Positions 2,837 through 28,519 of a stretch of 28,519 nt of DNA are shown here, one piece after another. Both the position numbers and the translations under genes were made by a program. The stretch comes from Paramacrobiotus metropolitanus (Eukaryota > Tardigrada > Eutardigrada > Parachela > Macrobiotidae). Each line of letters begins with the position of its first letter. Within the stretch, counting starts at the first letter, position 1. Below the pieces are notes generated by a model, which ran no database searches, had not been told where the DNA came from, and saw only the letters and a list, made by a program, of their open reading frames with translations. The stretch covers positions 1-28,519 of the forward strand of contig NW_026570617.1 in the NCBI RefSeq assembly GCF_019649055.1, in the 5' to 3' direction.

Positions 2837-3215
2837 TGTCCTCATGCTTGTATTGCTGGCCTCGAGGAGGACTGCTTAGAAACTGTGGACAAATACAGCC
2901 TCGCTATTCTGCCGTCGGACTATTTCCCGATCGTTGACAGGGAGACACTGAAACTGATTGTGCAGCGCGGCACGCTGCGGGTGGATGAGGACACCGTTTA
3001 CACAGCTTTGGAAAAGTAGATAGTTCATGATCTCCTTGCAAAGTGTATCGGTTTTGAGTCAAAGCGATGTTTCCGACAGGTGGTCCCTGACGGCTTGTGT
3101 GCGGAAGGGTCTGGAGCCCTCCCATATCAACCGGCTGGCGATGCTGGTCGACTTGTTCCCCGTCCGTTGCCCTCTGTTAAGAAATCCGGATCGTTTGTAC
3201 CGCCGCCATTTTGCG

Positions 3216-4985: not shown

Positions 4986-5486
4986 ATGACCTGCCATTTC
5001 GTCGACGAAAATTCGTCAACCGTCATGTCGTTGTGAAGCGCCGTATGGCTCACCGCTCAGCTTGCGCAGCTTCGTCAGTTTCCGCTTAAAGCGCCCTCTG
5101 GCCTGGCCACCAACGGACCAACCACATTCCGCCTCGCGCCATGTGGACCACCCAGTCCGAAGAGCATTTGCATTTCCGCATCGGTAAAACCGATTGCAGA
5201 GTTCTTTCTCATTCACGTTACGACGAGCCAGCTGGTGTTTTGTTGCTTTGCTGGCGATTTTTTCAATACACACTGACCCATTTATCTCGCGCTTTTCCTT
5301 CTTTATCGAGCCGGCTTTACGTTGGACAACGGCCAAGTGGACTCTCAAATCGTCGTACAGACACAATGTCGACCCGTCACGATGTCGAACTAACGTTTGG
5401 CTAAACCATCTCAGTCTTAAGCCTTGCTTCTTAATTTTCTTGGGTTTTTAGTTTTCTTCCCTGCGCACACTATTCAGTTCATTTGC
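4986..5486. other. Region upstream of kelch gene C
   Basis: No conserved gene is visible. An open minus-strand frame (about 5366-5016) has a skewed, basic composition and no domain I recognise, so I treat it as chance. The promoter and any 5' untranslated exon of gene C should be here. Confidence 0.4.
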
Positions 5487-5519
5487 TGTTTCAAGAGTAA
5501 TTCCACAAACAAATTGAGG
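5487..5519 (+). promoter_or_regulatory. Conserved 5' leader of kelch genes
   Basis: The bases just before the start codon of C (TTGCTGTTTCAAGAGTAATTCCAC...TTGAGG then ATG) match the leaders of D and E, which read TTGCTGT..AGAGTGAT.CCACGTA...CTGAGG before ATGGC. Conservation directly upstream of all three starts supports the ATG choice and marks shared untranslated sequence. Confidence 0.55.
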
Positions 5520-8002
5520 ATGGCGGCAGTCAATGGGACTGGTGAGCAAGTGACTGGCACGCGAGTTGCGGCTAATGCGGATCTTCATCGGGAATGGCAG
5601 AATCTGCGAACCTCGAGAATGTTATGTGATGTGGAGCTGCGTGGTGCCGAAGCGCAGTCTACAGGGATTCCCTGTCATCGCAGCGTACTCAGTGTGCACA
5701 GTGGGTATTTTCGCATCATGTTCCTATCGGGGATGAAGGAATCCACAGAGACAGCTGTTCAGCTGCGAAACATCTCCCATATTGTTCTATCCGAGTAAGT
5801 CTCATTTCCGCTAAGCTGAAAATTTTCTACGGCAATCTTGGACTCTTGGGTTTGCGTCTGTTGCGGTGTTTTCTACACGAAAAGTGTTGTTAGAAGATTT
5901 GTCTGTATTCCTTATGGTTGGTGCGCGCGGAACGTTCTTGCTGGGTTCTTTACGCTACACCAAGTACTCTGTGATATTGATAATGTCGTGATAATATAAT
6001 AATCTCCAATTTTTGTTGCCCAGGTTGATTGACTATTGCTACGTGGGAGATGTTCTCCTCACCGACAACAACGTGCAATCACTGCTAACTGCTGCGTCGT
6101 TTCTGGACATTGGTGCCGTCGTAGAATCCTGCTGGACATTTATGGAAAGCCGTACAGACGTTCAGAACTGCCTGATGGTGTATTGTTTCGCGGATTCCGA
6201 TGCGCATAAGAACGCTGCGTTAGCACGCAAAGCCAAGGCGTTGGTGCTCCAAGGTTTTGTTTCTGTTTCCCAGCAGCCGGAATTCCTTGCGCTGTCAAAC
6301 GAAAAGGTATTTATTTGACGCCATGGTGCAATTGTAGTCCTTCATAAAGCACAATTCACCTCGATCCCGGCACAATTCAAAGTACAGCACTAAGGAATAC
6401 TTCCCTGTATATTTGGCAGGTAATCGACATCATTCGCTCCGACGATATTCAGGTGCCTGGTGAAGATCAGGTTCTGCTCGCTGTCAAAGGCTGGCTCCAG
6501 CATAATCCCATGCAGCGACGCTGTAAGTTCTGGGAGATCCTGCAGTGCGTTCGGCCCTCCTACTTGAGCCCACAGGGCATCAAGGACTACTTATTGGCCT
6601 GCATCAACGCCCTTAAGTATTACGCCGGCGGAGATGGACTGCTGCACCAGTCGGATGATTTGCAGGTTTTACCGGGAAGCGACGCGGAGCCTTTATCGTC
6701 GCGGAGTGTTGCTCGGAAGTCGTATGGTAGGTCTGTAGACGACACAAGTCTGATAGCGCTTTTCTGAGGTGTTGTAATCATCATGACCATTCTGTTACTC
6801 CATAGTGCCTTTCATTGCGTAAATTTGACCATTGCTCACTGCTCGCGCTGCTCCCGGTGCACGAATATAATCCACCATATTATTATGGTTGCAGGGATTG
6901 AGAACATTACTGTCTGTGCCGGAGGGCATTCCGAAACTTCCTGGATTTCTCAGGTAGACAGCGTAGATGGCGTTAACCCACGCACTTCCCGATGGAGGAA
7001 GCTGGCGCGGCTTCCGTACCGTGTGGCCAACAGCGGTTTGGCGGTCATCAACAATGAGCTGTTCTTGTGCGGTGGCATCATCGGTTGTGGTGACTCGCGT
7101 GTGACGCCGCGGACGATTCGTTATAACCGTACCCTTACTTGTTGGACGGATATGGCGCCGATGCAAACTGGTCAAGGTAATCATAGTGCTGCGGCCATTG
7201 CGGGCCACATTTACGCAGTTGGTGGTTATGGGAGCGATACGCGCACGCTAGCCACAGTGGAGCGTTACGATGTGACCACCAATCAGTGGACGTATGTGGC
7301 GTCCTTACCCACGCCGCTGGAGAAGTTCGCGATCGTCAGTTACGACGATCAGTTGTTCGTTTTGGAGGTTGATTGTCAAATGCTCCTAATGCTACTGATT
7401 TGGCATTCTGTTATGACCCAAAATCGAATACCTGGACTGACTTGCCCAAGATGCCGACTGCACGATTCCGCGCCTCTGCCTGTGTCGGATGCTACGGGTG
7501 GATTTACGTAATAGGTGCGAGAGGCGCGAAACATCTCCGGAGTTGTACGATGTGTCATGTTTTTTATTGCATTCACAGGTGGAAGGAGCGGTGGCGCCCT
7601 CACCGCCCTGAGCTGTGTTGAGGCTTATAACACCACGACGAAGCAGTGGATTAAGAAATGTAAGTGGTACACTAGTTTGATGCATTCTTTCCGAAAACAA
7701 CCAGAAGTGCGTACGCGGCTACGCATAGAAAATTTGTTAAAAACTGTGCGATGCAGCTTTCTCACTGGGTTACAGCTGAAATCTGTCGTCCACTGTATGG
7801 TGCTGGTGCTCACTGTGTGGACAACAACATTTACGTTCTGGGTGGATTAAACCAGGCCAGTGTCGCTACGAACACAATTTACGTTTACGACGTGTTTTCG
7901 GGCACATGGATGATCTCGAAATGCCAGCTGCCTGTTGGGAAATGGGCGTTTGGTTGTGCTGTCGTGGAAATCGTAAAGGATAAAAGCGAGCACTTGTATT
8001 AA
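5520..8002 (+). pseudogene. Gene C: KLHL-like BTB-BACK-Kelch, six exons, one frameshift
   Basis: The exons are 5520-5794, 6024-6306, 6420-6726, 6895-7514, 7580-7659 and 7776-8002, all with GT-AG introns and matching phases. Exon 1 has the BTB start (RMLCDVELRG, CHRSVLSVHSGYFRIMFLSGMKEST). Exon 2 finishes BTB (NVQSLLTAASFLDI) and enters BACK. Exon 3 completes BACK (GEDQVLLAVKGWLQHN). Exons 4-6 carry about six kelch blades. Predicted length is close to 597 residues, normal for KLHL proteins, which usually present substrates to Cullin-3 ligases. The coding length is one base over a multiple of three. After DDQLFV at 7361 the frame slips (four T instead of an expected five) and an in-frame TGA follows at 7370-7372, before the frame resumes with SNAPNATDLAFCYDPKS. 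Everything else is intact, so it is either a very young pseudogene or carries a sequence error. Confidence 0.8.
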
Positions 8003-11156: not shown

Positions 11157-13005
11157 TTAAACATACCCGCCTAAACCTCCGGATTTCGCTACTTTCCAGA
11201 GCGTCATTTGATTGCGACTAATCACGAGATCCATGAAGTCGACCTCAACGTTTCCGTCTGCGACGTGGACAATGTGCCGACCGCTTGCAGCCGCTAAACC
11301 GCAGTACTCCGCTGAATTAAAGCAGCAATTCCGCCAAGCAATAATCATTTGATGCTTTTTCAAGATATCGGACGCTCGCACGATCTGATCCGGAGCATAT
11401 ACGGTCACCGATTTGGCCTGGATGTTGACGGTAATACCATTTCCGTTTCTGTCACTAATCTCTCCGGGCAGCCAGCCTGTATTCCCGGCCCGAACAAACA
11501 CCAGCTCCTTGCACTGAAAATCGATAAAACCGGTACACATCCGCGGTTCAACCGGAAAGCCGAGCGGCGGTTTAACATTGGCGTGCTTGTACTTGTAGAT
11601 AGCAAGTAGTTCGATTTCCGTAAGTAGTTCACTCTGCAAAAGACACATTGGCAATGAGTATTGACTATTGAGTAATACTGCTTTACAATCTGAGCGCAGT
11701 TTTTGCACTGCACTAACCTTGTCAGGACCGTTGACCAGCTGAGAATCGGTGAGCAATGGAAAACGGATAAGCGACAAGACTGCGCCCAGCATCTGACGCC
11801 GATTGCCGCTGGACGGTTTGAGGTTGTTCTTGCGGCATGCCTCCACAGACCACCTGCAGCCGGCATCCAGTTATCAAGATGAATAATATAAACACTTTAA
11901 GTGAAATCGACGTACTCTTCCACGGCCGTGTAGATGCTGTTCTCATCCGCCGACAAAGCATTTCGCTGCAGCACCAACCCCAGTGTATCTTGACTAATCG
12001 CCATGAACTGCTTCGAATGAAAAATAGCGTCAGTCGACGCATCCACCACTGCCAAACACTTTTCCACGCAGGCCGCAACGCTGTCATGTTTGAATGGTTT
12101 CACCTGCTCCGAGCCCAGATAGCTGATATTGAATTTAAACGGTACAGGTGTCAAGGTTAAACTATGCTATGCTACTCACATTTTCGAGATACACCAAGCA
12201 GTTGTCGGCGTTCAAATGGCTGCGGACGAATTCCAGGCATTTTTCCATGAGGAACGGCAGATTGTACTTGTCGGCGCAGTAGATAACCTGGAAAACGTTC
12301 TCCACCCGCAGACTACCTCGTGCTGAACCAGTGTACATGAATCTGCAGTAAAAAGGTGAGCATTTAGCAAAACCTTCCAGGTTTTTGTGAGAATTCTCCT
12401 TTGAAATCCTGGTAATTGTGGTCTTCGTGAGTTTCTCGTGTATTTCTTTTATTACCTACTTAGCAACTCTGTTGTTGCTGTGTACTTGATGTCGTACTAC
12501 CACTCAGTTATCCTGCCAGCTGGCTACTGTTACCATCAACTTGTATTATAAAAAGTATTACTTATTTTACGTATTCCTGCAAACACGACAGTAATGCATA
12601 AACAAAACAAGCCTTAAGGCTGAACCCAGCGTACCCGAGCATGATGGAAAATGCTTCTGGCAGAACCTCCATGACATCAATCGGCTCTTCTCGACTCTCC
12701 GGCAATCCTCCATTGAACATGGCGTCAAACACGTCGCTATTCAGACAGAGGATGAACCTGAAAGTAAAGACAGCGCAATTTGATTACTGGAGGAGAAATC
12801 TGTAGGAGAAATCTGTTATTGGAATCTGTAAGGGTCTCACTCACTTGTGAGCCTGAAATATTTTCGCGGCTCCATGCTGGCGTCCGACGGTGAACTGCAC
12901 ATCGGTCATCTGTCCCGTGGCCAGAACGTGTTTCAGAAGATTGTTGATCCCCGGGGCTCCGCGTCGCCAGTCGGAAGCCGCAGATGTTGTCGGAGATTGA
13001 GGCAT
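11157..13005 (-). CDS. Gene I: BTBD6-like BTB-BACK protein with novel C-terminal (R)ASDIL module
   Basis: Six exons on the minus strand: 13005-12845, 12757-12635, 12342-12180, 12103-11916, 11853-11718 and 11633-11157. All have GT-AG borders and consistent phases and give 415 residues. BTB spans about 25-149 (TDVQFTVG, FDAMFNGGLPE, VIYCADKYNLPFLMEKCLEFV). BACK is about 150-225 (CLAVVDAST, ADENSIYTAVEEW). The helical linker MLGAVLSLIRFPLLTDSQLVNG matches the segment that precedes PHR in BTBD6. From residue 258 the last exon has no PHR signature. Instead it reads ELVFVRAGNTGWLPGEIS, QIVRASDILKKHQ (RASDIL at 343-348) and MDLVISRNQMTLWK. By family analogy it is a Cullin-3 adaptor whose module would choose the target. 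The start ATG fits the length of exon 1 in H exactly (161 nt). Confidence 0.88.
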
Positions 13006-13855
13006 GGTAGGATTTACAAACAGCCTGTTGCTAGACGATCTCTGCTTGACGGTTTGCGGGTTGCAGGTTGCACCAGAAAAATTGAAGTAGTCGACTTCAA
13101 GTAGACAAAACGGCAGAAGAAAGTGAAAAAAGTCACAATAACTTGTATGGAGATTAACAGCTGCGAAGTAGATGAAAGCTCGCTTCTAAAAGCTCTGAGT
13201 GTGGACGCATTAACCCATTTACTGTGGGCGCCTGCAATTGAGGATTATGCCGGAGACGGCGGAGAGGAAGACTCGGATTGGCTGTGGTCGGCCATCTTAT
13301 TCATTTTATGCCAGGTCACTGAGTGCAGCGAGGGCCGGACACTGAAGTTCATCAGTTCATCAGTTGCTCAGATATCAAAATATACTGATTTTATCAGCCA
13401 CATGATCGGTGAGCGCGTCTAACAAAATAATTATAATTATTACAGACTGTATGCTTTGGTTTACTTGAAGCTGTATTAGAAAGTAAGTATTAACAAGATT
13501 AAAAAAAAGGCGGAAGCAGCCAGAACCAACCCTCTAAGGCAATGTTTAAGCGGAGCAAATTTTTTAAACAGAGATATATGGCCAAGCAACGTTGCCGCTC
13601 GGAATATTTATCTGTTGTTTTCTGCTAGGAATATTTATCTCGTACGTAATGCGAAAGCTGTAATGCACAGTATTACGCAATAAATCACTAGGTGTTAATT
13701 TTTTATCTGGTGATGAACATCGTAAGTAAAAGAAAAAATTGCCGCAACATGCACACAATGTCACAAAGCGCAAGAATTGCGACAAAACTAGAAAACACCA
13801 GCGAATTCATCGACGATGGTTGTCGTAAACAGAACAATCATTCCGGACGTGGTTC
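13006..13855. other. Interval between gene I and the 3' end of D
   Basis: The upstream region of I overlaps an unexplained plus-strand frame (ATG at 13147, stop at 13422, about 91 acidic residues) without domains or obvious splice partners. I give it low weight. The part at about 13640-13805 is homologous to 21795-21965, the 3' flank of kelch gene E. For example, GATGAACATCGTA and TTGCCGCAACA.GCACACAAT occur in both, which marks the left end of duplicated block 1. Confidence 0.5.
13640..13805. repeat. Left edge of duplicated block 1 (3' flank of D)
   Basis: This stretch aligns with 21795-21965 downstream of E through shared runs such as AAGCTGTAAT.C.CA.TATTAC, GATGAACATCGTA, TTGCCGCAACA and AACACCAGCG. 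It shows that the duplication took non-coding flank as well as genes. Confidence 0.7.
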
Positions 13856-14455
13856 TCATGAACTGAACAACTGAACTGCAATTTGAGGTTGTTCGTTATG
13901 CTCCCTTGGGATTTTGGCCACGCTGCAGCCAAAGCCCCATCTTTCAACGGGCAACTGATTTTCACGGCGCGTCCATGTGTCCGAAGACACGTCGTACACG
14001 TTGATCGATTTCTCCACAGTTGCGTCAGCGCCTCCCAGAATATAGATTTTGTCGCCGATGCAACAGGCTCCAGCGGCATTCAGCGGACGGCGCAGGCTAC
14101 CTACCAGAAAGAAAAAGCCAGTCTGTCTAGCTGAAATTAGCGTTCAAAGTGCAAAGTGAACAAACTGAAGAGAACCCACATTTGTTTTGTCCACCGCTTG
14201 CTCGCCGGATTAAAAGCCTCAACGCAGGTTAAATTACAAGCGCTGCTGCCTCCACCTAGCAATCGAGATACAGCTGGGATCACGGAAATTACTATACTGC
14301 AAGAATTAACGCTTCCGATATCGGTGTAGAAGTACCGATAACGTAGATGCATTCATCTGATCCCACGCAGGCTGCTGCGCTGTACCTTCCAGTCGGCATC
14401 TTGGCCCACACATCCGCTTTCGGATCGTAACAGAATGCCGCATCCGTCAGACTAA

Positions 14456-15251
14456 CCAGGGAACCTAGGGGTCCTCCCCCTTTAGAAAAATCTCATTTTT
14501 TGCACAAAGGTAGTAAACATATGTAGGACATTTAAAAAAATTTTTTCAGCTGCTGTAATCAAGGTAGGCGTGATCAAACGCAATTTAAAGTCGTTAGATC
14601 AGCCATATCTTCACACATGCTAATATATCAGGTTTTTTCTCCGTTACTTCTTCGTTTTCATGAGTGACACCACCGTTTAGTTTTTTGTACATGATAGACA
14701 CTTTGAGGTCGTGATATTTTATAGTTGCTCAAACGAAATTCAAGAGAAAAACTGATGATAAAGGAATATATTTATAACCATTCCAGTAAAGAACATTTTC
14801 GGTAAAAAATTTGGTAAAAACCGCTTTTACAAATTTTGTAAAAGCGGGTGATAGAATACAGACAGAATACAGACACGTGATAGAATACAGATACGCATGC
14901 TGCGCTGCAGCAACGTACAAGAGTGTTAAATACAGGACAGGACAGGAGTAAAGTACTGGAGTGAAATGCTTGATGTGTGGTTTTCAATGCGGTTTTCTTG
15001 ACCACAGCAGGTGAACTCGCAGCCTTAAACCATGCGTCACTTATGAAATCAAAGAATTAACTGACAAAAAATCGATATATTATCATACCTATGTGCAGTA
15101 CTTACCAACTTAACAATTTTAAATTACGTTTGACCATGCCTACCTTGATTACAGCAGCTGTAAATATTTTTTTAAATGTCCTACATATGTTTACTACCTT
15201 TGTGCAAAAAATGAGATTCTTCTGAAGGGGGAGGGCCCCTATGTTCCCTGG
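14456..15251. mobile_element. 796-bp non-autonomous DNA transposon (MITE-like) in a kelch exon of D
   Basis: The element starts CCAGGGAACCTAGGGG and ends with the complement CCCCTATGTTCCCTGG. Terminal inverted repeats run about 145 bp (14456-about 14602 and about 15105-15251) at roughly 90% identity, with a perfect core of about 50 bp. It is flanked by TAA at 14453-14455 and 15252-15254. A 3-bp TWA duplication is the habit of PIF/Harbinger elements (family knowledge), but the TIR sequence was not compared with any library. The interior of about 500 bp encodes no transposase. It holds a perfect 13-bp-arm palindrome at 14821-14847 and short direct repeats of TGATAGAATACAGA. Confidence 0.9.
14821..14847. 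repeat. Perfect palindrome inside the D transposon
   Basis: The arm CCGCTTTTACAAA at 14821-14833 is exactly complementary to 14835-14847, with a single T between them. The inner part of the element is not otherwise conserved with the terminal repeats. Confidence 0.9.
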
Positions 15252-17026
15252 TAAGACGGTCCATAGTCGACGGCCTATAGTCGCCTCCGAATGCAAATAT
15301 CTGACTATCAAAGCTGATGACGACTGACTTCGCCAGGGGTTTTGGTAAGGATGCCACATATGCCCATTGATTGCTGAGCGCATCGTAGCGCTCCACAGTG
15401 GCTACTGCCTGGTAATGATCGTCAAATCCCCCAACGACGTATATGTGATCGCCCATCGAGGCAATACCCAGATCGCGTCGTCCAGTGTGCATTGGCGCTA
15501 CATGCTTCCAGACAGCCCGAGCGCTGTCATAGCGCAGTGCCCATGGCGTCACATCCCCGATCCGAAAACCGAGAATCCCGCCGCACAGGAACAAATCTCC
15601 ATTGATGACTGCCAGGCCGGCATTGGCAACTTTGTACGGTAACGGTGCCAATTTCGTCCACTGTGCAGTGTTTGGACTGAAGTATTCCACGCTGTCCAGC
15701 AGAACTGTCCAGGTCTTGAAACCGCCGGCACAAACGATAACTCCCTTGCAGTCTACTTCTATAAATCAAATCAAACTATGGTAATGAAAACATTAATAAT
15801 TCGAAATATGACAGTCTCGTGCATGTTCTTGGGTTCAGTAAAAAGCGCTAAAGCGGGACCTCCGCAACCGTACCATACGATTTGCGTGCGGTGTAGAGGG
15901 TGGAAGATGCCTCGCTGATGGTTCCAGGCAAGACTTTCAAGTGAGACAGGGCTTTTTCGGCTCCCGAATAGTCCATGGAGGCGTTAATGCAGGCCAGCAA
16001 GTATTCGTCACGGCATTGTGGACTCAGATACGCCAGCCGAATGCGCTGCAGCATCTCCCAAAACTCCCAGCGTCGCTGCTCGAAATCATGCTGCAGTCAT
16101 CGAGTAACTGCGCGCACTGCATTATCTTCGCACCCCACGCACAAGGTATCGTAGCGGATCAGGTCGATAACCTGTCGATTTTGAACCAAGTTTACGTCAT
16201 TACGGGACGTTCTTTAGCGCGTAAGCTAAGTACCAGAGCAGCTTACCGTAGTTTTCGGCAGCTCCAAAAATTCCGGTCCTTGCGAGACGTCAGCAAAATG
16301 CTTAAGAACATAAACTTTGGCTTTGTCGGCTAACGCGGGATTCTTGTGCGCATCGGAATCGGCGAGACAGTACAGCATCAGACAGTTCTTTGCGTGTATG
16401 TGCTTCTCCATGAATTCCCAGCAAGCATCCACGACGGTACCAATGTCCAGAAACGCGGCAGCAATCAACAATGACTGCATGTTGCTTTCAGTGACGATAA
16501 CGTCCTCCATGTAGCAGTAGCCGTTCAACCTGTAAAGCAAAACGTCGAAGATCACCATGATGATGGCATGATCATATTCCAGGAGCCCCCATCGCTTTAT
16601 TTCGTGGCGAAAAAATAAAATACCTTCTCTGAATGCAAGTTATGTAAATTCGCGTGTACAAACAAACCCTTCGCCAAAACGAAAACAAAATACCTAGTTT
16701 TCGAATCTGGAGACTTACTGGGACAAAACAGTGTGGGACATGTTGTGGAGCTGAATAACTTTCTGTGTGGATTCCTTCATTCCCGACAGGAACATGGTGC
16801 GGAAATACGCACTGCGCACACTGAGGACGCTGCGATGACACGGAAGCCTTGGCGACTCCGCTTCGCAACCTCGCAGCTCCACATCACAGAACATTTGCGA
16901 GGCTCGCGGATTCTCCCATTCCCGACACAAATCCCCGTTACTCGCACCAATTCTCGCCCTACTCTCCCCTTGTCGAGGAAGGTTGCCATTCTGACCGATT
17001 TGCTCACGAGCCCTCTTGGCTGCCAT

Positions 17027-17374
17027 CCTCAGGAAATACGTGGAATCACTCTACAAACACAGCAAAAATCGTGCCTACGCCGCATAAAGAACGGCCTGTC
17101 AGCATGAGTTTGACAGTTCTCCACTGACTGATGTCAATCCCGGTAGAAAAAAGCCTATGACAAAACTTCAGAGCCAAAAGAATGGAAAAATGCGTTTTCA
17201 AAGTAGAAAACTTAAAGTTTTCAAAACCAAATATTAAAAGCCAATCTTTAACGACAAATTAACGTTTCTAATTGTACGTAATTTGTAAATACATACAGTA
17301 CCGCGCTCACATTCTGGACTACTTGAAGTACAGTAACTACTTTACTGCTGTGCGGTTGTGTGCGCGTTCGGGAG
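17027..17374. other. Left half of the D/F bidirectional intergenic region
   Basis: The conserved kelch leader (complement of CCTCAGGAAATACGTGGAATCACTCTACA) lies next to the D start. Further out, 17085-17220 aligns with 24488-24620 next to E (AACGGCCTGTCA, then GGAAAA.GC..TTTTCAAAGTA). This supports common descent of the two intergenic regions and probably contains the D promoter. Confidence 0.55.
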
Positions 17375-17939
17375 ACGCGTTCTTCCCTCGTATGGGAACA
17401 ATGCGTTCATTGGCTGTGATCACAACCAATAGAAATTGCGAAATGGGCTCCATTACATTACCGTCTAGGCGCTACTAATTAGGTGCTACTAAATACTTTA
17501 ATAAATTCGCGTTTGCAATGCGAATTTCGTCTAGGTGCTACTAATTATTATTGCAAATTGCAATGCACGTGCAGTATATGTAGGTGCTACTAATTAGGTG
17601 CTACAAATATTTCTAGGTTATTTCTAGCCACGTATAAGTTATGTCTAGGTGCTACTAATTTGGTTTTCTGATATTTTATAGTAATGCGATGTAGGTCATG
17701 TCTAGGTGCTACTAAATAGGTGCTAATAATATTTTATTGCAGTGCAATGCAAATTTATCTAGGTGCTACTAAATTTTTAACAGCAAAGCGATATGAATTT
17801 AGGTGCTACTAATTAGGCGCTACTAAATATTTTAGTATAATCGAGCCGCGTAATCCGGTATTTCACAATTTCTATTGGTTGTGATGTTAAATTATCACAG
17901 CCAATGAGGGCGTTGTTCCCATACGAGGGAAGAACGCGT
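17375..17939. mobile_element. 565-bp inverted-repeat element with 10-bp target duplication
   Basis: The ends are ACGCGTTCTTCCCTCGTATGG and its complement. The terminal inverted repeats extend about 70 bp through CATTGGCTGTGAT and CACAACCAATAGAAATTG, with a small gap. The element is flanked by an identical 10-bp direct repeat, CGTTCGGGAG, at 17365-17374 and 17940-17949. No open frame could be a transposase. TSDs of 8-11 bp with long TIRs are typical of Mutator-like elements (family knowledge), so a MULE-type MITE is my best guess. The corresponding E/G intergenic region has no such element. Confidence 0.88.
17464..17828 (+). repeat. Eleven TAGGTGCTACTAA-type motifs inside the 565-bp element
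   Basis: Copies begin near 17466, 17480, 17532, 17580, 17595, 17643, 17702, 17716, 17759, 17801 and 17815. Most read TAGGTGCTACTAA(A/T); variants are TAGGCGCTACTAA, TAGGTGCTACAAA and TAGGTGCTAATAA. Eight are arranged as four close doublets, with a TAGGC variant at each outer end, all on the same strand, and separated by unrelated AT-rich spacers. They are the only ordered feature between the terminal repeats. Confidence 0.9.
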
Positions 17940-18257: not shown

Positions 18258-20946
18258 ATGTCAGGAACCTTCTCCCTTTCTCCACGGAATCCTGAGCGAA
18301 CGCAATGGCGAACGACACTTGGAGGAATCGCGGACCAGATGAAGCATATCTTGATCACCGGTGAACTGAGCGATGTGCAGTTCGCTGTCGGGCGTGAGTA
18401 TGGCGACGAGAAGATCTTCTCCGCTCACAAGTTAGTTCAAGTGCCTCTTGAAGTTCCTGAGAACGCCTGATGGAGCTACAACTGACAAGGTGTATATTGC
18501 AGGTTTGTACTAGGCCTGGGCAGCGACGTTTTCTACACTATGTTTAACGGGGGTTTGCCAGAGACTGGCAACAGGCCCATCGATGTCCCGGAGATTCTAC
18601 CCCAGGCTTTCGCCAACATGCTCAAGTACGCACGATTTCTATGAATTATTGGCACAATCATTTGCGTGAGCCGCGGCTTCGCATATGAGGTATGAGGATT
18701 GGTGGGCAAATAGTCTCGTATTAAATGGGGGCATTTTCTTAGGTATCTCTATACTGGTACCTTGGATGAAGAACTCACAGCCGAAGATATCTTGCAAACC
18801 ATTTACTGTGCGGACAAATACAACTTACCGCAGCTGACGGATTTGTGCTTGCACTGCGTTAATACCCACTTCAACGCTGACAACTGTCTGCTCTTCTTGG
18901 AAAAGGTTGGTGGTAAAAAAGTTTAGATTCACAGTGTATGACAAGAAAAGGCAGTTGTTGTCGACGTGAAGCGCACTGAATGTGAGCCAGCTGCGCAGTG
19001 ATATTTATTTTTCCGAAATGCGCACCAACTGTCCTAGTTCCTCTATTCTTTGCCATACCTTTTTTGCTAAGAAATACGGTACAGATTGCATACAACTGAT
19101 AAAAGAATATTCTTCTGCCCAGGTTAAATCTGCACCGCACGATTGCTTTGCTGGTTTATTGGAGAAGTGCCTGGCAGTGGTCGACGCACACGGCCGCGAT
19201 GTTGTGAAGGCGGAGCAGTTCAGCTTGATCGGGCAGGATACGTTGGCAATGATCCTACAGCGCAGTACGTTGGCCGCTGAGGAGAGCATCATCTACGAGG
19301 CCGTGGAGAAGTGGGTTGTCTTTGTTCCACTGTTGTTTGCTGCAACAGTGACTGTTTTGGGGCGGTTACAGGTGGTCTAGGGAAGCCTGTCAGCGGGGCA
19401 ATCTGGAGTCCTCGCAGATCAACCGTCGATGGGTGTTGGGTCCGGCGCTGTTCTTCGTCCGTTTCCCGCTGCTGACCGATGCTCAGTTGATTAGCGGACC
19501 CGTCGCGGTAAGTTGGGGGAAGCAGCATCCTTGTGATGAACTGACTTAGTAACCATAATTCATAATTGTACTACTGTATTATTGATCTGTCAGTTATTAT
19601 CGTATTAATAGATCAGTAGTCATCAGTTGCTCTATTAACAGTCCAGAGTGTTATATTTTCATACGTGACAATCCTATCAAATACTTCGACGTTTTTCGCA
19701 TTCTGGACACTTTCACGATAATATGGTTTTGCGTAAACGAAAACGGTGGAAAAAGTTTGCGTTGTTCCACATCAGAAAACTTGATAATTCGTAATAAAGA
19801 TCGTGAATAAGCATGTTTAAAAACAATACTCTTCCTCTAATCAACTTTTTGAATGATTTATCATTTGTAAATTGTAACAACGCGGAAAGTACCCGTTCTC
19901 TGGTATCTGCTACGCGAATCCATATACGCGAATATCCGCTTTTTGCATTCTGGACACTTTCACAATGTCAAAGTGTCCAGAATGCAAAAAGCGTCGAAGT
20001 ATCCAATTGTGCAATTTAAGGTTAAACAGTCGCATGCTCCCATATCCAGCATTCTATACGCATGCGGCTCACCGCACTTTTGCGACAGCCGGATATTTTG
20101 ACTTACGAGCAGCGATTTCTGGAGAATGTATTCCTGCAGATACCTGAAACATACCATTCCATAGAGAAAATCGGTTCTAATAAGTACTATTTCAGAGTAT
20201 TTCTTTCAGAGTATTTCTTACAACGGGGCAAGGATTATCATTCTTTTGCAATAATTATGTAAAGTATGTATTGCAAAAAGTATATTCTCCGGAAATCGCT
20301 GCTTGTTAGTACGTACAGACTGGTACAGTGCAGCGCGTCGCATGTGTACAGGTACGGGAGTATGCGACCGTTTTGTCTTAAATCTTAACTGCATTTTTGG
20401 CAGAGCGGACTGCTGCTGGATTCCGAGGTGCGGGGTATCTATCAGTTTAAGTATTCCCACTTTGGCTGCCAGCTTCCCTTTCCGACGGAGCCGCGAGAGG
20501 GTACGGTGTTGAACGTCGCCAGCGGCGGCGCCGAATTCACCTACAAGGAGAAAGTGTTCGTTGACGTTGGTTCGCCTGATGATCTCTGGGTTCCCGCACT
20601 GATTGTCGGGATAAGGGGAGCGGAGTTTGCCATTACGCGGGTGGGAGGAGAAACAGTGGAATGGTACGCCATGCACAAGATCGTCCGGGCCTCGGACATT
20701 CTGCAGAAAGGTCAAAAGATTACGCTGTACGGTGAGGTTCGTGAATCGGACGGCACTTATGTTGGTTGCCGCGCGAAAGATGTGCACGTCGTAAAATACG
20801 GTCTGTGCGGTCGCTCCGAGTGGTCAGGACCGCTGTGTGACCTGCGGATGAGTCGCGAACAGATAGCGGAGTGGAAATCCTCCAATGCATCACAGCTGGC
20901 CCATGTCGAATTCCAACGCCGATTACTGAATGATAAACGCTGGTGA
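18258..20946 (+). CDS. Gene F: BTBD6-like BTB-BACK protein with novel C-terminal (R)ASDIL module
   Basis: Six exons: 18258-18430, 18503-18625, 18743-18905, 19123-19310, 19372-19507 and 20404-20946. All are GT-AG and in phase, giving 441 residues with no lesion. BTB covers about 35-153 (SDVQFAVGREYG, FYTMFNGGLPETG, TIYCADKYNLPQL). BACK is about 154-230 (GLLEKCLAVVDAHG, EESIIYEAVEKW). The linker is VLGPALFFVRFPLLTDAQLISG. Exon 6 (residues 262-441) has LPFPTEP, VFVDVGSPDDLWVPALIVGI, HKIVRASDILQKGQKI (RASDIL at 356-361) and LRMSREQIAEWK, and it is 22 residues longer than in G and I. Intron 5 is 896 bp against about 55-85 bp in G, H and I because it contains an insertion. AATAAA at 21257-21262 may end the transcript. 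It is head-to-head with kelch D. Confidence 0.9.
19681..20002. mobile_element. Inverted-repeat insertion in intron 5 of F
   Basis: ATACTTCGACGTTTTTCGCA at 19681 opens a 33-base arm that is complementary, with about three mismatches, to 19970-20002. A third copy of its inner half (GCTTTTTGCATTCTGGACACTTT, 19938-19960) is exactly complementary to 19970-19992, leaving a 9-nt loop, so the right end can fold into a 23-bp perfect hairpin. No clear target duplication is visible. It accounts for part of the extra length of this intron. Confidence 0.6.
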
Positions 20947-22045
20947 CTGATGCAGTTTCACTCCGCCCTGACGCACTCAGTGTTTGTGAATTTTCGAAAT
21001 TTTGTTTGGCGAGTGTTTGAACGGTCGAATCTTGTTATAATTGTTAACTAAATATTTTGCTCGTGCAAGAAACGGATTGTTTGATTTTGTTGTTAATGTC
21101 TCCATTTGGAGTTTGCGTTTGGCCTGATTTTTCGCGATTTGGAATATCATATTCTGCAACAGTGTCTATATAACTGCTGCCTGTTTGCTTGAAGTTATGC
21201 GCACCCGAAATGTTCCGACAGTCAGCACGCATACCAACGATAATTGTCGCCGCTCAAATAAAAGTTATTCTGTTCACAGGAGTAATATTGGGCAATTTTA
21301 ACTTTTGTGACATTTACTGGCAACACGGAAAATGATCCGTGAAATATTATGCGCCGTTCTAGAGTTTGGTCTTGTGCAGACTGTTAATTTTCGGACCAGA
21401 ATAGCAATCCGTCATGCCCTTTGCCCTGCTTACCAGAAAATCCTTGTTTGAACCAGTTTAGGCGCAAAGTGACATTAAGTGCAAATTTACTTGGCGCCCG
21501 TGTAGAAGTTTTCCACTGTTTCTTTTTTATTTTTTCTGACTCCTGGCACTCTGATTTGCAGATGGGTACCGCGCGACGACATATGCACAAGTAGAATGGC
21601 AAATACGTACTCGTATACTTCTATAGGTAAGCAAATTTTGAACTTGTTATTCTTTGCAAGCCGATATCTGGTGGTACTTGGTACTGAATGTGGTTAGCTT
21701 TATTATTATTATTATCACTCTTTATTATTATTTGATAATTTATCAGGAACAAGCACGCACATACTGCAGTGAATATTATACAAATAATATGTCTGCAGTT
21801 GCGTAACGCGTAAGCTGTAATACGCACTATTACAAATTACAGCACAAAATGTCACTTTTTCTTATCTAATGATGAACATCGTACGCAGAACAAATTGCCG
21901 CAACAGGCACACAATCCCCCAAAACGCAAAAGAATTACGACAAAGCTAAGGAACACCAGCGTATTCCAGCTGGTTGCCTTAAACAGAACACTGATTTGGG
22001 AAGTGGCCAGGTTTTTACTTTTCAGGAAGCAGCTGCACCCGAAAT
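20947..22045. other. Junction between block 1 and block 2
   Basis: This holds the 3' flanks of F and E. It contains a possible F polyadenylation signal (AATAAA at 21257-21262), a TTA-rich microsatellite at about 21700-21735 (whose complement offers AATAAA for E), and at 21795-21965 the sequence homologous to the 3' flank of D at 13640-13805. No gene was recognised. Confidence 0.5.
21795..21965. repeat. Left edge of duplicated block 2 (3' flank of E)
   Basis: This is the counterpart of 13640-13805, with shared runs GATGAACATCGTA, TTGCCGCAACA.GCACACAAT and GGAACACCAGCG. Similarity continues into the final kelch exons of E and D. Confidence 0.7.
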
Positions 22046-24418
22046 TCAAGGTTTCTTGTTATGCAGTTTCGGGATTTCGGCCACGCAGCAACCAAAGCCC
22101 CACGTTCCAACCGGCAGCTGGTTTCACGGATCATCCATGTATCCGAAGATATGTTGTATACGTTGATCGATTTCTCAACAGTTGCACTGATGCCTCCCAG
22201 AACATAGATTTTGTCGCCAATGCAACAAGCTCTAGCGGAATTCAGCGGACGGCGCAAATTACCTACAAGAAAGGATAATCCAGTATCCATGATTCGCATA
22301 AAAAGCCGCAAACTGGACAACATCAACAGAACACACATTTTTTGGTCCACTGTTGGGTTTCCGGATTAAAAGCCTCTACACAGCTCAAACTGCGTACACC
22401 GTCGTTTCCACCTAGCAAGCAACTGTTATACGATCGTAGCAAAGGAAAAACTCTAAGGCTACTACTAAATAGCGATATTCTGGTACCGATAACGTAAATC
22501 CATCCGGATGGATCCCGCGCAGGCTGATGCGCTATATCGTCCAGTTGGCATTCTGGGCAGCTCACTCCAAACATCCGCTTTCGTGTCGTAACAGTATGCT
22601 GCATTGGTAAAACTAAGACAGTCAGATATAGACTTGGAGCCTCCAAACACGAACAGTCGACCATCGAAGCTGAAGACGGCTGACTTCGTCAACGGCGTTG
22701 GCAAGGATGCCACGTACATCCACTGATTGCTAAGCACATCGTATCGCTCCACAGATGCTAAGGTTCGGTAATGGTTGTCAAGACCCCCCACGACGTAAAT
22801 GTGATCGCCAGCCGAGGCAATACCCAGATCACGTCGTCCAGTGACTCCAGTCTGCATCGGCGCTACACAGTTCCATACAGCCAGAGCGCTGTCATAGCGT
22901 AATGTCAGCGGCGTCACATCCCCCCTCCGAAAACCGCGGATCCCGCCGCACAGGAACACGGCGCGGTTGCTGACAGCCAGACCGACATTGGCCACCCTGT
23001 ACGGCAGCGGTGCTAATTTCGTCCATTGTGCAGTGTCAGGATTGAAGTATTCCACGCTGTCCAGCAGAACGGACCAGGTCGAATCTACATGACCGCCGGC
23101 GCAGACGATAACGCTTTGGCATCCTACGAATCAAGTCAAAACTATGCTAATGCGAACATATGCACCGTTTTACTATCTCTTCGTTACTGCGTAGTCCGTG
23201 GGTTTCGGTAGGAAGGACCTCTGAAACTTTACCATAAGATTCTCTTGCCGTGTAAATTGTGGAGGATGCCTGGTTGATGGTTCCAGGCAAAACTTTCAAG
23301 TGTTCTGTCGGACGGAGCGCATTTTCTGCTCTCGAACGATCCGAAGAGGCGTTAATGCAGGCCAGAAAGTACTCGTCACGACATTGTGGACTGAGATGCG
23401 ACTGTCGAATATGCTGCAGTATCTCCCATAATTCCCAGCGTCGCTGCTCAAAATCGTGATGCAGCCACCGTGCAATGGCGCCAAATACGTCGTCCTCATG
23501 CGGCACACACAAGACGTCGCAGCGGATCAGGTCGACAATCTGTCAATTTTCAACGACTTAGTTGGTCATTATGGAATTTTCTCGTATATTTTAACTCGAT
23601 GAGGTGAATCTTGTTATGCTGATAGTAACAAGTTAAGTACCAGAACAGCTTACCACATTTTTTGGCACCTCCAAAAATTCGGGATTTTGCGAGATGTCGG
23701 AAAAAGTTTGAGAACACAGGCCTTAGCCTTGTCGGCTAGCTTTGGATTTGTGTGCGCATCGGAATCGGCGAGACAGTACAGCATCAGGCAGTTGCAGACG
23801 TGCATGTGCTCTTCCATGAACGTCCAGCAGGTGTCCACGACGGAGCAATCAGCAATGACTGGACGTTGCTTGCAGTGACGACAATGTCCTCCGTGTAGCA
23901 GTACTCAATTAGCCTGTGCAGCAAAACGTCGAACATCATAAGTTCATAATCAGAGAACGCCCATCATTCGTGGCAAAAACAAATAAAGACACTGCTCTGT
24001 ACACACTCAACGCAAGTCATATTTGCATTTACAAAGATCGAGCATCATCACAATCGAAAAGTTAGTTTGCACAACACGGTCACCACCTAGTTTGCGAAGT
24101 TGGTAACTCACTGGGACAGATCCGTGTGGGAGATGTTGTGTAGCTGAATAACCTTCTGCGTGGATTCCTTCATTCCCGAAAGGAACATGGTGCGGAAATA
24201 GGAGCTGCGCACACTGAGGACACTGCGATGACACGGAATCCCAGCAGAATCCGCTTCGGCACCATGCAGCCCACATCACAGAACGCTCGTGAGGCTCGCA
24301 GATTCTGCCATTCCTGGCGCAGATCCCCGTTACTCGCCCCAATCCGCGTCATACTCTTATCTTGCCGAGAAAGGCTGCCATTCTGATCGATTTGCTCACC
24401 AGCCCTCTTGGCTGCCAT
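22046..24418 (-). pseudogene. Gene E: KLHL-like gene with multiple small indels
   Basis: Minus-strand exons: 24418-24112, 23913-23654, 23539-23233, 23123-22487, 22411-22337 and 22262-22046, all with GT-AG borders matching D. The domains are BTB, BACK (CVPHEDDVFGAIARWLHH, intact Trp) and Kelch (LAPLPYRVANVGLAVSN, VGGLDNHYRTLASVERYD). Lesions compared with C and D: a 1-nt deletion after FCDV in exon 1 (307 against 308 nt, near 24271); a 22-nt deletion removing AAFLDIGT in exon 2 plus a further 1-nt deletion before the DISQNPEF segment (260 against 283 nt); one extra base near 22500 in exon 4; and a 1-nt deletion in the last exon near RET/SC. Splice sites survive although the frame does not, pointing to fairly recent loss. 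It is head-to-head with G. Confidence 0.88.
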
Positions 24419-25071
24419 CCTCAGGGAATACGTGGTATCACTCTACAAAGTACAAACAGCAAAATTCATGTAGATATCACATAATCAACGGCCTGTCATC
24501 CTGTGTTCAGCAGTTCCCAACTTACTAGTATCGATCGCGACAGAAAAAGGTCTGTGAAAAAACTACGCAGGTAAAAGAAAATGGAAAAGCAGGTTTTCAA
24601 AGTATGAAGTTTCAAATCACTTCTACTTTCTGATGTTAAGTGCCGCGCTACACATTTTGCACTGTTACTTGTGGCTTGTGCTGCTGTACAAAAGCTGCTG
24701 TTATTGAGAGCTTCCCGGATCGTTACCTCCCTGATGCGGCAGTGTTGTTTAAACGTCTTTTAAGCTTTTCGTTCGAGTTGCGTTCGTATCACCGTGCTGT
24801 CGACTGGTGACTGAAGACAGATGTGCTGCAGACGTGCAGTCAACATTTTCCACTTCATTTTTTCACTCTCCGATTATTTTCTTTGAAACGTCTGATTTTA
24901 AAAGTTACTGGCAAACTCAGGTAATAAGACATTAGCGTGTCGACATTGGTTGACTGAACTGCACACCGGATTCATTCTCTTTCTTGTTTCTCTGAAGCAA
25001 CCAGTCACCGCCGTTTTGGTTTGTTTGAAGATTACCATTCCTGTATTTTGGATTTCCTGCCTCTTTGAGTC
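24419..25071. promoter_or_regulatory. E/G bidirectional intergenic region
   Basis: This 653-bp gap separates the E start from the ATG-like site at 25072. The D/F gap is 1,231 bp, which becomes 656 bp once the 565-bp element and one 10-bp duplicate are taken away, so the two promoter regions are the same size. The kelch leader complement lies at about 24419-24455, a block shared with D at 24488-24620 and the block shared with F at 24723-24755. It is probably a shared divergent promoter. Confidence 0.55.
24723..24755 (+). promoter_or_regulatory. Conserved block upstream of G
   Basis: This matches 17956-17987 upstream of F with only a few differences (CTCCCTGATG(T/C)GGCAGTGT and a TTTAAAC core). 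The surrounding bases are much less alike, which argues that the block itself is constrained. Confidence 0.45.
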
Positions 25072-25109: not shown

Positions 25110-26674
25110 ATGGCGAAGCACGCTTCCAGGAATGGTGATCTTCTGCAACATATTCTGGCTAGTGGGGAGATGAGCGATGTACAGTTCGCCGTCGGACGTA
25201 AGCATGGTCCAGTGCAGATCTTCTCTGCGCACAAGCAAGTCCACACGGCACTCGATGTTTACTCATTCATTCTGACAACGGTAATCGATGCTGTTCTGCA
25301 GGTTTGTACTCTCGCTGACCAGTGATGTCTTCTACACCATGTTCAATGGAGGTCTGGCTGAAAGCGGTGACAGCCCGATCAGTATCCCGGAGATCCTGCC
25401 CGACGCATTCGCTAACATGCTCAAGTACGTGTATCGCGGTGTATACATGTGGACTGCTTCGCAACGAAAAGGATTACCGATCACGAGCAAACGTATAGTG
25501 TATGCTGGTTTCTTGTTTCAGATTTCTGTACACGCGTTCACTGAATGGAGAATTAACAGAGGACAACGTCTTCCAGACGATGTACTGTGCTGACAAGTAC
25601 AATCTGCCGTTGCTGCTGGAACTGTGCCTCAAGTTCGTCAACACCCACCTGAAGGCCGACAACTGTCTCATGTTCCTGGAGAAGGTTGTTATTTGCGCTT
25701 AAGCCGCCGTTGTGGACCGTAACTAACTTTGTTTGATCAGCGCTTTTTCCGAGCAGGCTAAACACTCGATGCTGGAATGCACGGCTGGTTTTGTGGACAA
25801 CTGCTTGGTGTTCATCGACGCACATGGCTCCGCTGTTTTGCAGTCGGAGCAGTTCAGCGCTGTCGGACGAGATATCTTGGAGATGGTTGTGCAGCGCAGT
25901 ACGTTGTCTGCCGACGAAAATATCGTCTACACGGCCGTGGAGAAGTAGGCTAGAACCGGGAGCTGCGAAACGCTTCAAAATATACCGTTTTTGTTGTGAT
26001 TCGTAGGTGGTCGGTAAACGCTTGTGTCCGGGATAATCTAGAGCCTTCGCCAACCAGCCGTCGTGAAATGTTGGGACCGGCGCTGTTTCTTGTCCGCTTT
26101 CCTTTGCTGAGCGACGCGCAACTGGCCAATGGACCGGTCAAAGTACGCTGCCCAAAAGCTCTGTTGTATTTGTGCAATATTAATTGCAGTTTTGCAGAGT
26201 GGTCTGCTGTTGGACTCCGAACTGCGGGAGATTTACCGGTTTAAGCATTCCGACACAAAACCATCACTCCCCTTCCCGACGGAGTTTCGAAAAGGCTCCA
26301 TTCGGCGAACGGAAAGCTGCCCCACGGAACTGCGTTTCCAAGTGTTCGCGGACTTTGATGGTACTGGAGCGTACTGGCATCTTGGAAAGGTCGTGAAGAT
26401 GGCGGACGATGGAGAGGATTGCTTGGTTGTGCAGAATGAGCCAACAGACCCCAAAAGGTGGATTGCCGTAAGCCGGCTGGTCTGGGCTTCTGATATTCTG
26501 AAGAACGGGCAAAAGATCATGTGCTTGGATAGGGAGGTCTCGTATGTGGCTTGTCAAGGGTGCGCTGAACACATTGTTGACTACGGGAACCGCAATTACA
26601 TGCCACGTCCATTTTACTACCTGGGCATGAGTCGTGCCCAGATGGCGGCCTGGAAAGCGTCCATGGCCCAGTAG
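25110..26674 (+). CDS. Gene G: BTBD6-like BTB-BACK protein with (W)ASDIL C-terminal module
   Basis: Six exons: 25110-25234, 25302-25424, 25522-25684, 25757-25944, 26007-26142 and 26198-26674, for 403 residues. Intron 1 has a GC donor (CACAA|GCAAGT); the rest are GT-AG. BTB is about 15-137 (SDVQFAVGRKHG, FYTMFNGGLAESG, YCADKYNLPLLLELCLKFV). BACK is about 138-215 (CLVFIDAHGSAVLQSEQF, ADENIVYTAVEKW), and the linker is MLGPALFLVRFPLLSDAQLANG. The last exon (246-403) carries LPFPTEF, RLVWASDILKNGQKI, HIVDYGNRNYMPRPF and MSRAQMAAWK. The ATG at 25072 that matches the starts of F and H runs through QPSEWRSTLPG and then out of frame, so I use the ATG at 25110, giving a short new N-terminus. Confidence 0.84.
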
Positions 26675-27375: not shown

Positions 27376-28519
27376 ATGTCAAATCACGCTCAATCCGTAC
27401 GGAATCCCGAATGGCGAACAACACTTGCAGGAGTTACTAACCAGTTGAAGCATATCTTGGCCAGTGGTGAACTGAGCGATGTGCAGTTCGCTGTCGGACG
27501 TCAGTATGGCGACGTGAAGATTTTCCCCGTTCACAAGTCCGTCTAATGCGCCTTCCTTGTTCCTTGCGACTGCTAAAGACTGACGAGTGGTTCCGTTGCA
27601 GGTTTATGTTGAGTCTGGGCAGCGATGTCTTCCATACCATGTTTAACGGAGGTCTGACGGAGAACGGCGGCAGTCCCATTGATATTCCGGAGATTCTACC
27701 GAGTGCTTTTGCCATCATGCTGAAGTTAGTACCACTTAGAATTGCGCGGTCGGACCCATAGCTGAGCGCAGTTTCGAAGGGTTTTATAAAACTATTATGG
27801 ACATTCCTAGGTATCTGTATACTGGTTGCGTGGAGGAAAAGCTGACAGCCGAGGAAACATTGCAGACCATTTACTGTGCTGACAAGTACAATCTGCCGCA
27901 GCTGGCGGACCTGAGCTTACAGCGCTTTTACACCCCATTCAATGCCAACGAGTGCGTCATCTTCCTGGAAAAGGTTGGTGGTACTGTACGATTGGTACTG
28001 TACGTCCAAACGTGAATATGGCTAACGAGTACAGGTTGGATAATGGAGTTTAAACGAGTGTTGTGAACAGTTTCTGCATTCGACGCACGAGCTCTCTGCT
28101 GGTTTGCTGGAAAAGTGCTTGACGGTGGCAGACACACACGGCCAAGATTTTTTGCAGTGCAAGCAGTTCAGCGCTATCGGACAGGATCTGTTAGTGACCA
28201 TTCTGAAGCGCAACACGTTGTGCGCTGAGGAACATATCATCTACACGGCCGTGGAAAAGTGGGTTCTCCTTCGTTTAGTGTCGCCGGCTGCCACTTCGCC
28301 TGATTCTGTGCGGTTGTAGGTGGTCTGCGGAAGCTTGTGTGCGGGACGGTGTGGAGCCTTCGCCGGCCAACCGCCGTCGGGTGCTGGGGCCGGCCTTGTT
28401 CCTCGTCCGTTTCGCGCGACTGACCGACGCGCAGCTCGCCAAGGGGCCTGTCGAAGTAGGTTGCGGCAGGAGAGTTAGTATCGTGAAGAACACTAAATTA
28501 ATGCATTTTTACAGAGTGG
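27376..28519 (+). CDS. Gene H: BTBD6-like BTB-BACK protein, truncated by window end
   Basis: Exons: 27376-27536, 27602-27724, 27811-27973, 28071-28258, 28320-28455 and the first five bases of exon 6 from 28515. All introns are GT-AG. The 257 visible residues contain BTB (LSDVQFAVGRQYG, FHTMFNGGLTENG, TIYCADKYNLPQLADL), BACK (GLLEKCLTVADTHGQDFLQ, AEEHIIYTAVEKW) and the linker VLGPALFLVRFARLTDAQLAKG. Exon 1 is 161 nt, as in I. Exons 2-5 have the family lengths 123, 163, 188 and 136 nt. The N-terminus (NPEWRTTLAGVTNQLKHILASG) is closest to F. The C-terminal exon lies outside the window, so the novel module is expected but not seen. Confidence 0.87.

Follow-up and report, generated by a model that had tools for sequence, protein, structure and literature searches.

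A tardigrade BTB-BACK gene family with a probable 53BP1-type Tudor pair in place of PHR

Which domain takes over the C-terminal end of a BTBD6-type protein when PHR is gone? The question is raised by a stretch of 28,519 nucleotides from the eutardigrade Paramacrobiotus metropolitanus (contig NW_026570617.1, positions 1 to 28,519 of the forward strand; hereafter the window, which is contig C397 of the 169.8-Mb genome searched here). The window holds three six-exon BTB-BACK genes of the BTBD1/2/3/6 type, F, G and I, and the last exon of each encodes a conserved module that is not PHR. An earlier note, made from the letters of the window alone, had described this module as one that it could not place, had seen in it a possible new kind of target-reading domain, and had guessed at kinship with the Tudor and Agenet barrels; the observation itself is confirmed, and the interpretation as a whole is partly supported. 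The best explanation of the results below, which we consider likely, is that F, G and I are members of a large family specific to this lineage in which PHR was lost and a Tudor pair was gained, and that the proteins most likely act as Cullin-3 substrate receptors.

Gene structure and the exon edge shared with a PHR gene

Spliced models of F, G and I, built from exon edges read in the sequence, give products of 441, 403 and 415 amino acids, respectively. The internal exons are identical in size in the three genes (123, 163, 188 and 136 nucleotides), and the introns are GT-AG throughout except for the GC-AG intron 1 of G. On the forward strand, F opens with exons for the start of BTB (18258..18430), for the BTB stretch that holds LPE as its phi-x-E motif (18503..18625) and for the end of BTB (18743..18905), continues with a BACK exon (19123..19310) and a 136-nucleotide exon for the end of BACK and the linker (19372..19507), and closes with exon 6 (20404..20946), which encodes an SGLLLDSEV linker and the Tudor-type module. 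All six exons follow from the splice model; Pfam matches support exons 2 to 4, a motif check exon 2, a comparison with a PHR gene exon 5 and a hidden Markov model (HMM) exon 6. The segment 20404-20946 on which the earlier note had focused coincides exactly with this last exon, with an AG acceptor ahead of it and a stop codon at its end. In all three genes BTB and BACK each score above the Pfam cut-off, and the best match of F in the PDB is the BTB domain of BTBD6 (2vkp, E 1.6e-18). In the last exon of the three genes, no Pfam family scores above its cut-off, the only match being a sub-cut-off Myosin_N in I.

The product of the last exon measures 180 residues in F and 158 in both G and I, exactly the range of 158-180 that had been proposed, and most of the landmarks proposed for it hold. 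The segments (I/L)V(R/W)ASDIL and SR.Q(I/M)..WK are found in all three genes, and the loop-end landmark reads VVKYG in F, IVDYG in G and VADG in I. LPFP(T/V)E is present as LPFPTE in F and G, and I departs from it with LGFPVE; W(V/L)P(A/G).I is matched by WVPALI in F and WLPGEI in I, and G is off pattern with WHLGKV.

The site of the replacement can be read from a true BTB-BACK-PHR gene on contig C183 of the same genome. This gene has the same 136-nucleotide exon as F, then a phase-0 intron, then SGLL. After the intron the C183 gene reads SGLLSDKEV...MPR and F reads SGLLLDSEV...EPR, and the sequences diverge beyond this point. The PHR domain of the C183 gene is spread over three exons, whereas the module is confined to one. 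Since the phase-0 intron ahead of the linker is common to the module genes and the C183 gene, PHR was replaced there, and the earlier claim that the last exon takes the place of PHR in a BTBD1/2/3/6-type gene is borne out.

The module is far more numerous in this genome than its three copies in the window. Genome searches with the modules of F and of two further copies (L050 and L048) gave 122, 83 and 121 matches at E <= 0.001, respectively. With matches within 150 bases merged into one locus, these amount to at least 197 loci, which are distributed over 41 contigs and lie a median of 7.8 kb from their neighbours. The loci are places rather than proven genes, and since scoring was confined to the best candidates, the counts are minimum values. 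PHR itself gave seven matches above cut-off on four contigs. Sixty copies (L007-L066), mostly long matches of the search with the F module, were aligned with F, G and I (alignment A1), and all 63 are matched by a single iterated HMM; together with the selective constraint described below, this shows that the likeness of the modules exceeds chance. For 40 of the 60, chosen to include close pairs and a range of the other copies, about 2.1-2.5 kb of upstream sequence was taken and searched for exons 2-5. The exon for the end of BACK and the linker (exon 5) is present in 39 of these 40 copies and the full set of exons 2-5 in 35; in several of the incomplete copies, the absent exons would fall at the margin of the sequence taken or outside it. 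An in-phase AG acceptor stands directly ahead of the linker start in 34 of the 40. At C302:42954-43364 (L057, L076), a module is found without exons 2-5 in the fetched upstream stretch and with another module (L025) about 1.35 kb upstream; exon loss or an assembly problem are possible explanations of this locus.

Kinship of the module with Tudor domains

In F, the module as aligned in A1 spans 20467..20901, as supported by the family HMM and alignment and by the match of the family profile to the unit called TTD3 below. Within it, a putative first barrel, supported by PDB and Pfam searches of first halves, lies at 20512..20721, and a presumed second barrel with the terminal SR.Q..WK helix, placed by colinearity with TTD3, lies at 20692..20901; the two stretches overlap by the RASDIL linker. 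The full-length profile has six matches in the PDB at E <= 10, five of them Tudor or PWWP chains. The first-half profile has ten, and the top seven are chains of PHF20 (3), PHF20L1 (2), Polycomblike and TFIIS, with a best E of 0.023; none of these is significant singly, and five of the seven come from one protein family. We take the matched chains of these four proteins to be Tudor or PWWP domains, and PDB entries 2ldm and 3p8d to be PHF20. A reversed full-length control built from 26 copies found no match in the PDB. Four Pfam families are matched by at least two of the 63 first halves, namely Agenet (6), Myosin_N (3), Tudor_3 (3) and PWWP (2); all are SH3-like barrels, and none of them is found by Pfam in any of the 63 second halves or the 26 reversed copies. 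These matches are all weak, with best E-values of 0.0002-0.03. A place for the first half among the Tudor, PWWP and Agenet barrels is nevertheless supported at the level of sequence, and to this extent the earlier guess of Tudor or Agenet kinship stands.

A gene elsewhere in the genome carries the comparison further. It lies at 1,056.7 kb on contig C11, was found by genome searches with Agenet and DUF4537 and later with Tudor_3, is absent from the listings of the module searches, and was one of seven loci compared with the module profile. The second Tudor unit of this gene (TTD2) passes the Pfam cut-offs of Tudor_2 and Tudor_3. Its alignment with the module profile extends for 71 columns and scores 30.2, whereas neither 100 shuffles nor 246 background open reading frames exceeded 19.84. 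It also resembles human 53BP1 over 22 columns, with a score of 26.9, and here the best of 60 shuffles was 17.7. One Tudor-like unit precedes it and one follows it in the C11 gene (L117), all three units have weak SH3_Hsr9 matches, and the downstream exons pass the cut-offs of BRCT_3 and RTT107_BRCT_5. From the order and strand of its exons, the gene is presumably a single transcription unit; it is 53BP1/Hsr-9-like.

The other six loci of this comparison, at C57, C481, C137 (2), C168 and C8, are genome Agenet matches that we do not count as copies of the module. When compared with its profile, L110, L109 and L112 score 24.9, 20.8 and 20.2, respectively, and so exceed the highest background score (19.84); L111, L113 and L114 score within the background. 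By eye, these loci fall into two sets of long open frames that are alike, L109 1708-2622 with L110 31-933 (C57, C481) and L111-L114 (C137, C168, C8); five of the frames were scanned and have weak Agenet matches (E 0.0004-0.007). They are perhaps other Tudor-type families of this genome.

A further link is to the unit that follows TTD2 in the C11 gene, the third of its Tudor-like units (TTD3), which we spliced from four exons and which is therefore split by three introns. The profile of the 63 modules matches TTD3 over positions 15-136 of its 137 with 91.8 bits and an E-value, set for a search space of 100,000 sequences, of 1.5e-25, the terminal W-K helix included. The last of the three introns was our own choice; a model without it is still matched over profile positions 15-111 (E 5e-21), and the hhalign score is 94.3, where the best of 60 shuffles reaches 21.6. 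In the PDB, TTD3 has four matches, the best three of which are PHF20 chains (E 0.12-0.6), and it resembles the second unit of its own gene with an hhalign score of 26.3 and a probability of 40 per cent. A genome search with TTD3 gave 94 matches at E <= 0.01, of which 87 lie at places found by the module searches and three are exons of its own gene. Two of the remaining four are on C182 and C76, and the other two, C2:3542199-3542408 and C15:539779-539997, have about the limits of its third exon; a sub-threshold Tudor_3 match lies about 10 kb from the one on C2. The C2 and C15 matches may be further 53BP1-like genes or paralogues. In another eutardigrade, Richtersius cf. coronifer, a transcriptome study reports seven 53BP1 transcripts (PMC6652013), some of which may be related to this family.

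On these grounds, the module is most likely a diverged Tudor pair of the 53BP1 type rather than the new kind of domain that had been suggested. The Tudor-type identity of the whole module, reached through TTD3, is plausible. Its second half is colinear with TTD3 to the end of that unit and, searched alone, finds no Tudor domain and no detectable repeat, so that it is placed by colinearity only and its folding as a second barrel is conjectural.

Several results weigh against this identification. The module has no significant likeness to human 53BP1 in a direct comparison, in which the alignment is in register and its score does not exceed those of shuffles, and TTD3 compared directly with human 53BP1 is likewise not above chance. 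TTD3 passes no Pfam cut-off, its best match being to an unrelated family (E 0.005) and SH3_Hsr9 reaching 0.02, and it is recognised only via its neighbour unit and the module's own first half. The second half of the module has six PDB matches with no Tudor domain among them, and the two halves are unlike each other by hhalign, their score of 8.1 being exceeded by 10 or more of 40 column permutations. Taken singly, F, G and I match no Tudor-type Pfam family even at E 10. Among the 63 copies, the best E-values of Tudor_3 (0.028) and Agenet (0.0056) are weaker than those at or below the cut-offs elsewhere in the genome; the Agenet cut-off of 27 bits is, to judge by these E-values, not reached by any of the 63 first halves, since a match of E 0.0004 elsewhere corresponds to 21 bits. 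No module locus is among the matches listed when the genome is searched with Agenet (7), DUF4537 (2), TUDOR (PF00567; 20) or Tudor_3 (2), a search with SH3_Hsr9 (PF24680) gave one sub-threshold match on C31 and neither the modules nor the C11 gene, and 53-BP1_Tudor (PF09038) had no match in the genome.

Evolution of the family and its possible function

The module is under purifying selection, with ratios of nonsynonymous to synonymous substitution (dN/dS) of 0.16-0.51 in the eight closest pairs among the 40 sampled copies; positive selection on the module was considered and rejected, the ratio being below 1 in all eight. It is at the same time the most divergent segment of the genes, with a mean pairwise identity of 0.333 against 0.437-0.584 for exons 2-5. 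In a tree rooted with TTD2 and TTD3, F, G and I fall inside one group of 16 rows (91/82, below the star of the tool), and TTD3 groups loosely with a copy on C88 and a few others. The basal forks lack support (27/22) and TTD2 is a long branch; the tree therefore establishes neither the sister group of the modules nor the direction of capture, which also counts against the proposed origin. TTD3 is homologous to the modules over nearly the whole profile, but it is split by introns, stands beside two more Tudor-like units and carries three cage-like aromatics, whereas the modules are intronless, are fused to BTB-BACK and seldom have all three. These differences are most simply explained if a domain like TTD3, in the form of an intronless copy, became joined to a gene of the BTBD6 type.

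Other origins of the module fit the evidence far less well. A PHR domain diverged beyond recognition would account for its position, which is that of PHR, and for its similar length. Such a relic was looked for and rejected: the module profile scores 13.7 against the PHR domains of C183 and C66, a value within the range of shuffled C183 domains, the best of which reached 18.2 in 40 trials, and these two PHR domains score 115.9 against each other. PHR is also absent from the 25 of 27 Pfam families listed for the 63 module members, and Pfam likewise finds none in the last exons of F, G and I. The match to TTD3 effectively refutes this origin. The module could instead be an SH3-like barrel of another kind, such as Agenet, PWWP or Myosin_N, that did not come from a 53BP1-like gene, as might be read from the frequency of Agenet among the weak matches of the first halves and from the failure of TTD3 to reach any Pfam cut-off for Tudor domains. 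The near full-length match to a unit of a BRCT gene and the match to a second unit of that gene that Pfam does recognise make this very unlikely. A family that consists for the most part of functionless, decaying tandem copies is a highly improbable reading; it is consistent with the 18 of the 197 loci in which every match bears a stop, but in the other 179 at least one match is free of inner stops, splice sites and upstream exons are conserved, and the module is constrained as described above.

If the module is a Tudor pair, it might read methyl-lysine on tails like those of histones or p53, as tandem Tudors of the 53BP1 type do, and so bring Cullin-3 ubiquitination to chromatin. The positions of the methyl-lysine cage, which we take from known structures to be profile columns 32, 39 and 55, were mapped by alignment. 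TTD3 has W, Y and W at these columns, the C88 copy (L038) has W, F and W, and 13 of the 63 modules are aromatic at both 39 and 55. The full aromatic set, however, occurs in just one of the 63 (in two if the first position is taken more loosely), 17 have no aromatic at any of the three, and the residues are V/V/R in F, F/H/N in G and A/L/I in I. The cage positions themselves depend on the alignment and on those structures. A methyl reader is thus unsupported for F, G and I, none of which has the full set that the suggested reading of methylated residues would call for, and for the family we find this function unlikely. Given the loss of the cage together with the fast but constrained evolution of the module, we prefer to see in it a binding platform that has diversified, and not a methyl reader that has been conserved. 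It is also unlikely, to a similar degree, that the proteins are not Cullin-3 adaptors at all, with BTB-BACK serving for dimerisation and the Tudor-type module as a scaffold or nucleic-acid-binding part. The phi-x-E motif of BTB contacts Cullin-3, and it is missing in 12 of 38 exon-2 products, some of them truncated matches, which speaks for this alternative and against an adaptor role. The motif is present in the other 26 (F, G, I and 23 of 35 others), and BTB, BACK and gene structure are common with BTB-BACK-PHR proteins, for which a survey of BTB proteins gives a Cullin-3 receptor arrangement as the expectation, with PHR as the substrate-recognition module (PMC1257465).

The receptor explanation can be set out as follows. 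A BTB-BACK gene of the BTBD1/2/3/6 type would have lost PHR immediately downstream of the phase-0 intron and of the SGLL..E..Y linker behind it, and a Tudor pair related to TTD3 of a 53BP1/Hsr-9-like BRCT gene would have been gained at this point, most likely via an intronless copy. In the resulting protein, the BTB dimer would dock Cullin-3, as may be expected by analogy with related proteins, BACK would position the C-terminal module, and the Tudor pair would pick the target with a binding face that differs among the copies. That the module recognises targets is, like Cullin-3 binding, a prediction from this arrangement.

Neighbouring genes and significance

The remaining family members of the window follow the pattern of F. 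G lies on the forward strand, with exons at 25110..25234, 25302..25424, 25522..25684, 25757..25944 and 26007..26142 and a last exon at 26198..26674 that holds the module (26261-26671). The donor of its intron 1, at 25235, is GC (GCAAGT), and that of F and I is GT. I lies on the reverse strand, with exons 1 to 5 at 12845..13005, 12635..12757, 12180..12342, 11916..12103 and 11718..11853 and its last exon at 11157..11633 (module 11169-11570). All these exons rest on the splice models, with HMM matches for the two modules. A fourth gene, J (27376..28519, forward strand), is assigned to the same family by its modelled BTB exons and BACK-like repeats (D1, D3, D4); its BTB exons are open, its splice pattern is that of the family, and it reads LTE at the phi-x-E motif. 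The window ends right after the acceptor of its exon 6, before any module sequence. A further partial copy of the family's BTB and BACK exons is found at 1847-1919, 2955-3019 and 3078-3147 (repeat families D12, D13 and D15). Interleaved with the BTB-BACK-Tudor genes, on both strands, are BTB-kelch-like genes at 5421-8002, 13806-17050 and 22015-24442 (kelch by eye; BACK by matches); repeat copies with DNA 71-86% alike occur at a spacing of about 7.4 kb. The gap upstream of F (17500-17830) contains many short repeats of the form TAGGTGCTACTAA.

The BTB-BACK-PHR proteins (BTBD1/2/3/6) are among the closest known systems, with the same BTB, BACK, linker, 136-nucleotide exon and phase-0 intron before SGLL; the family described here differs in having a single-exon Tudor-type module in place of PHR. 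It also differs in number: it has at least 197 loci, whereas the BTB survey gives four to seven proteins of the BTB-BACK-PHR kind for each metazoan genome (PMC1257465). According to the same survey, known lineage-specific expansions of BTB adaptors pair BTB with MATH, kelch or NPH3, and the MATH-BTB proteins of Caenorhabditis elegans are such an expansion with one presumed substrate-recognition domain (PMC1257465). They resemble the present family in this respect and differ from it in their target domain and in their opposite domain order. A literature search at the level of titles and abstracts, with subscription journals largely outside its reach, found no description of BTB-BACK-Tudor proteins or of their expansion.

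Taken together, a BTB-BACK backbone appears to have acquired a Tudor-type module akin to one in a gene of the DNA-repair type, and the combination now occupies about 200 loci. This is a clear case of domain replacement because the likely relative of the module, the PHR domain that it replaced and the point of fusion are all visible in one genome. A bolder idea, to which we give only limited credence, is that a desiccation-tolerant animal has turned a chromatin-reading Tudor pair of the 53BP1 kind into the target end of about 200 Cullin-3 receptors, so that its protein turnover would be steered by readers of chromatin or nuclear proteins. Whatever the targets may be, the family constitutes a testable list of candidate receptors.

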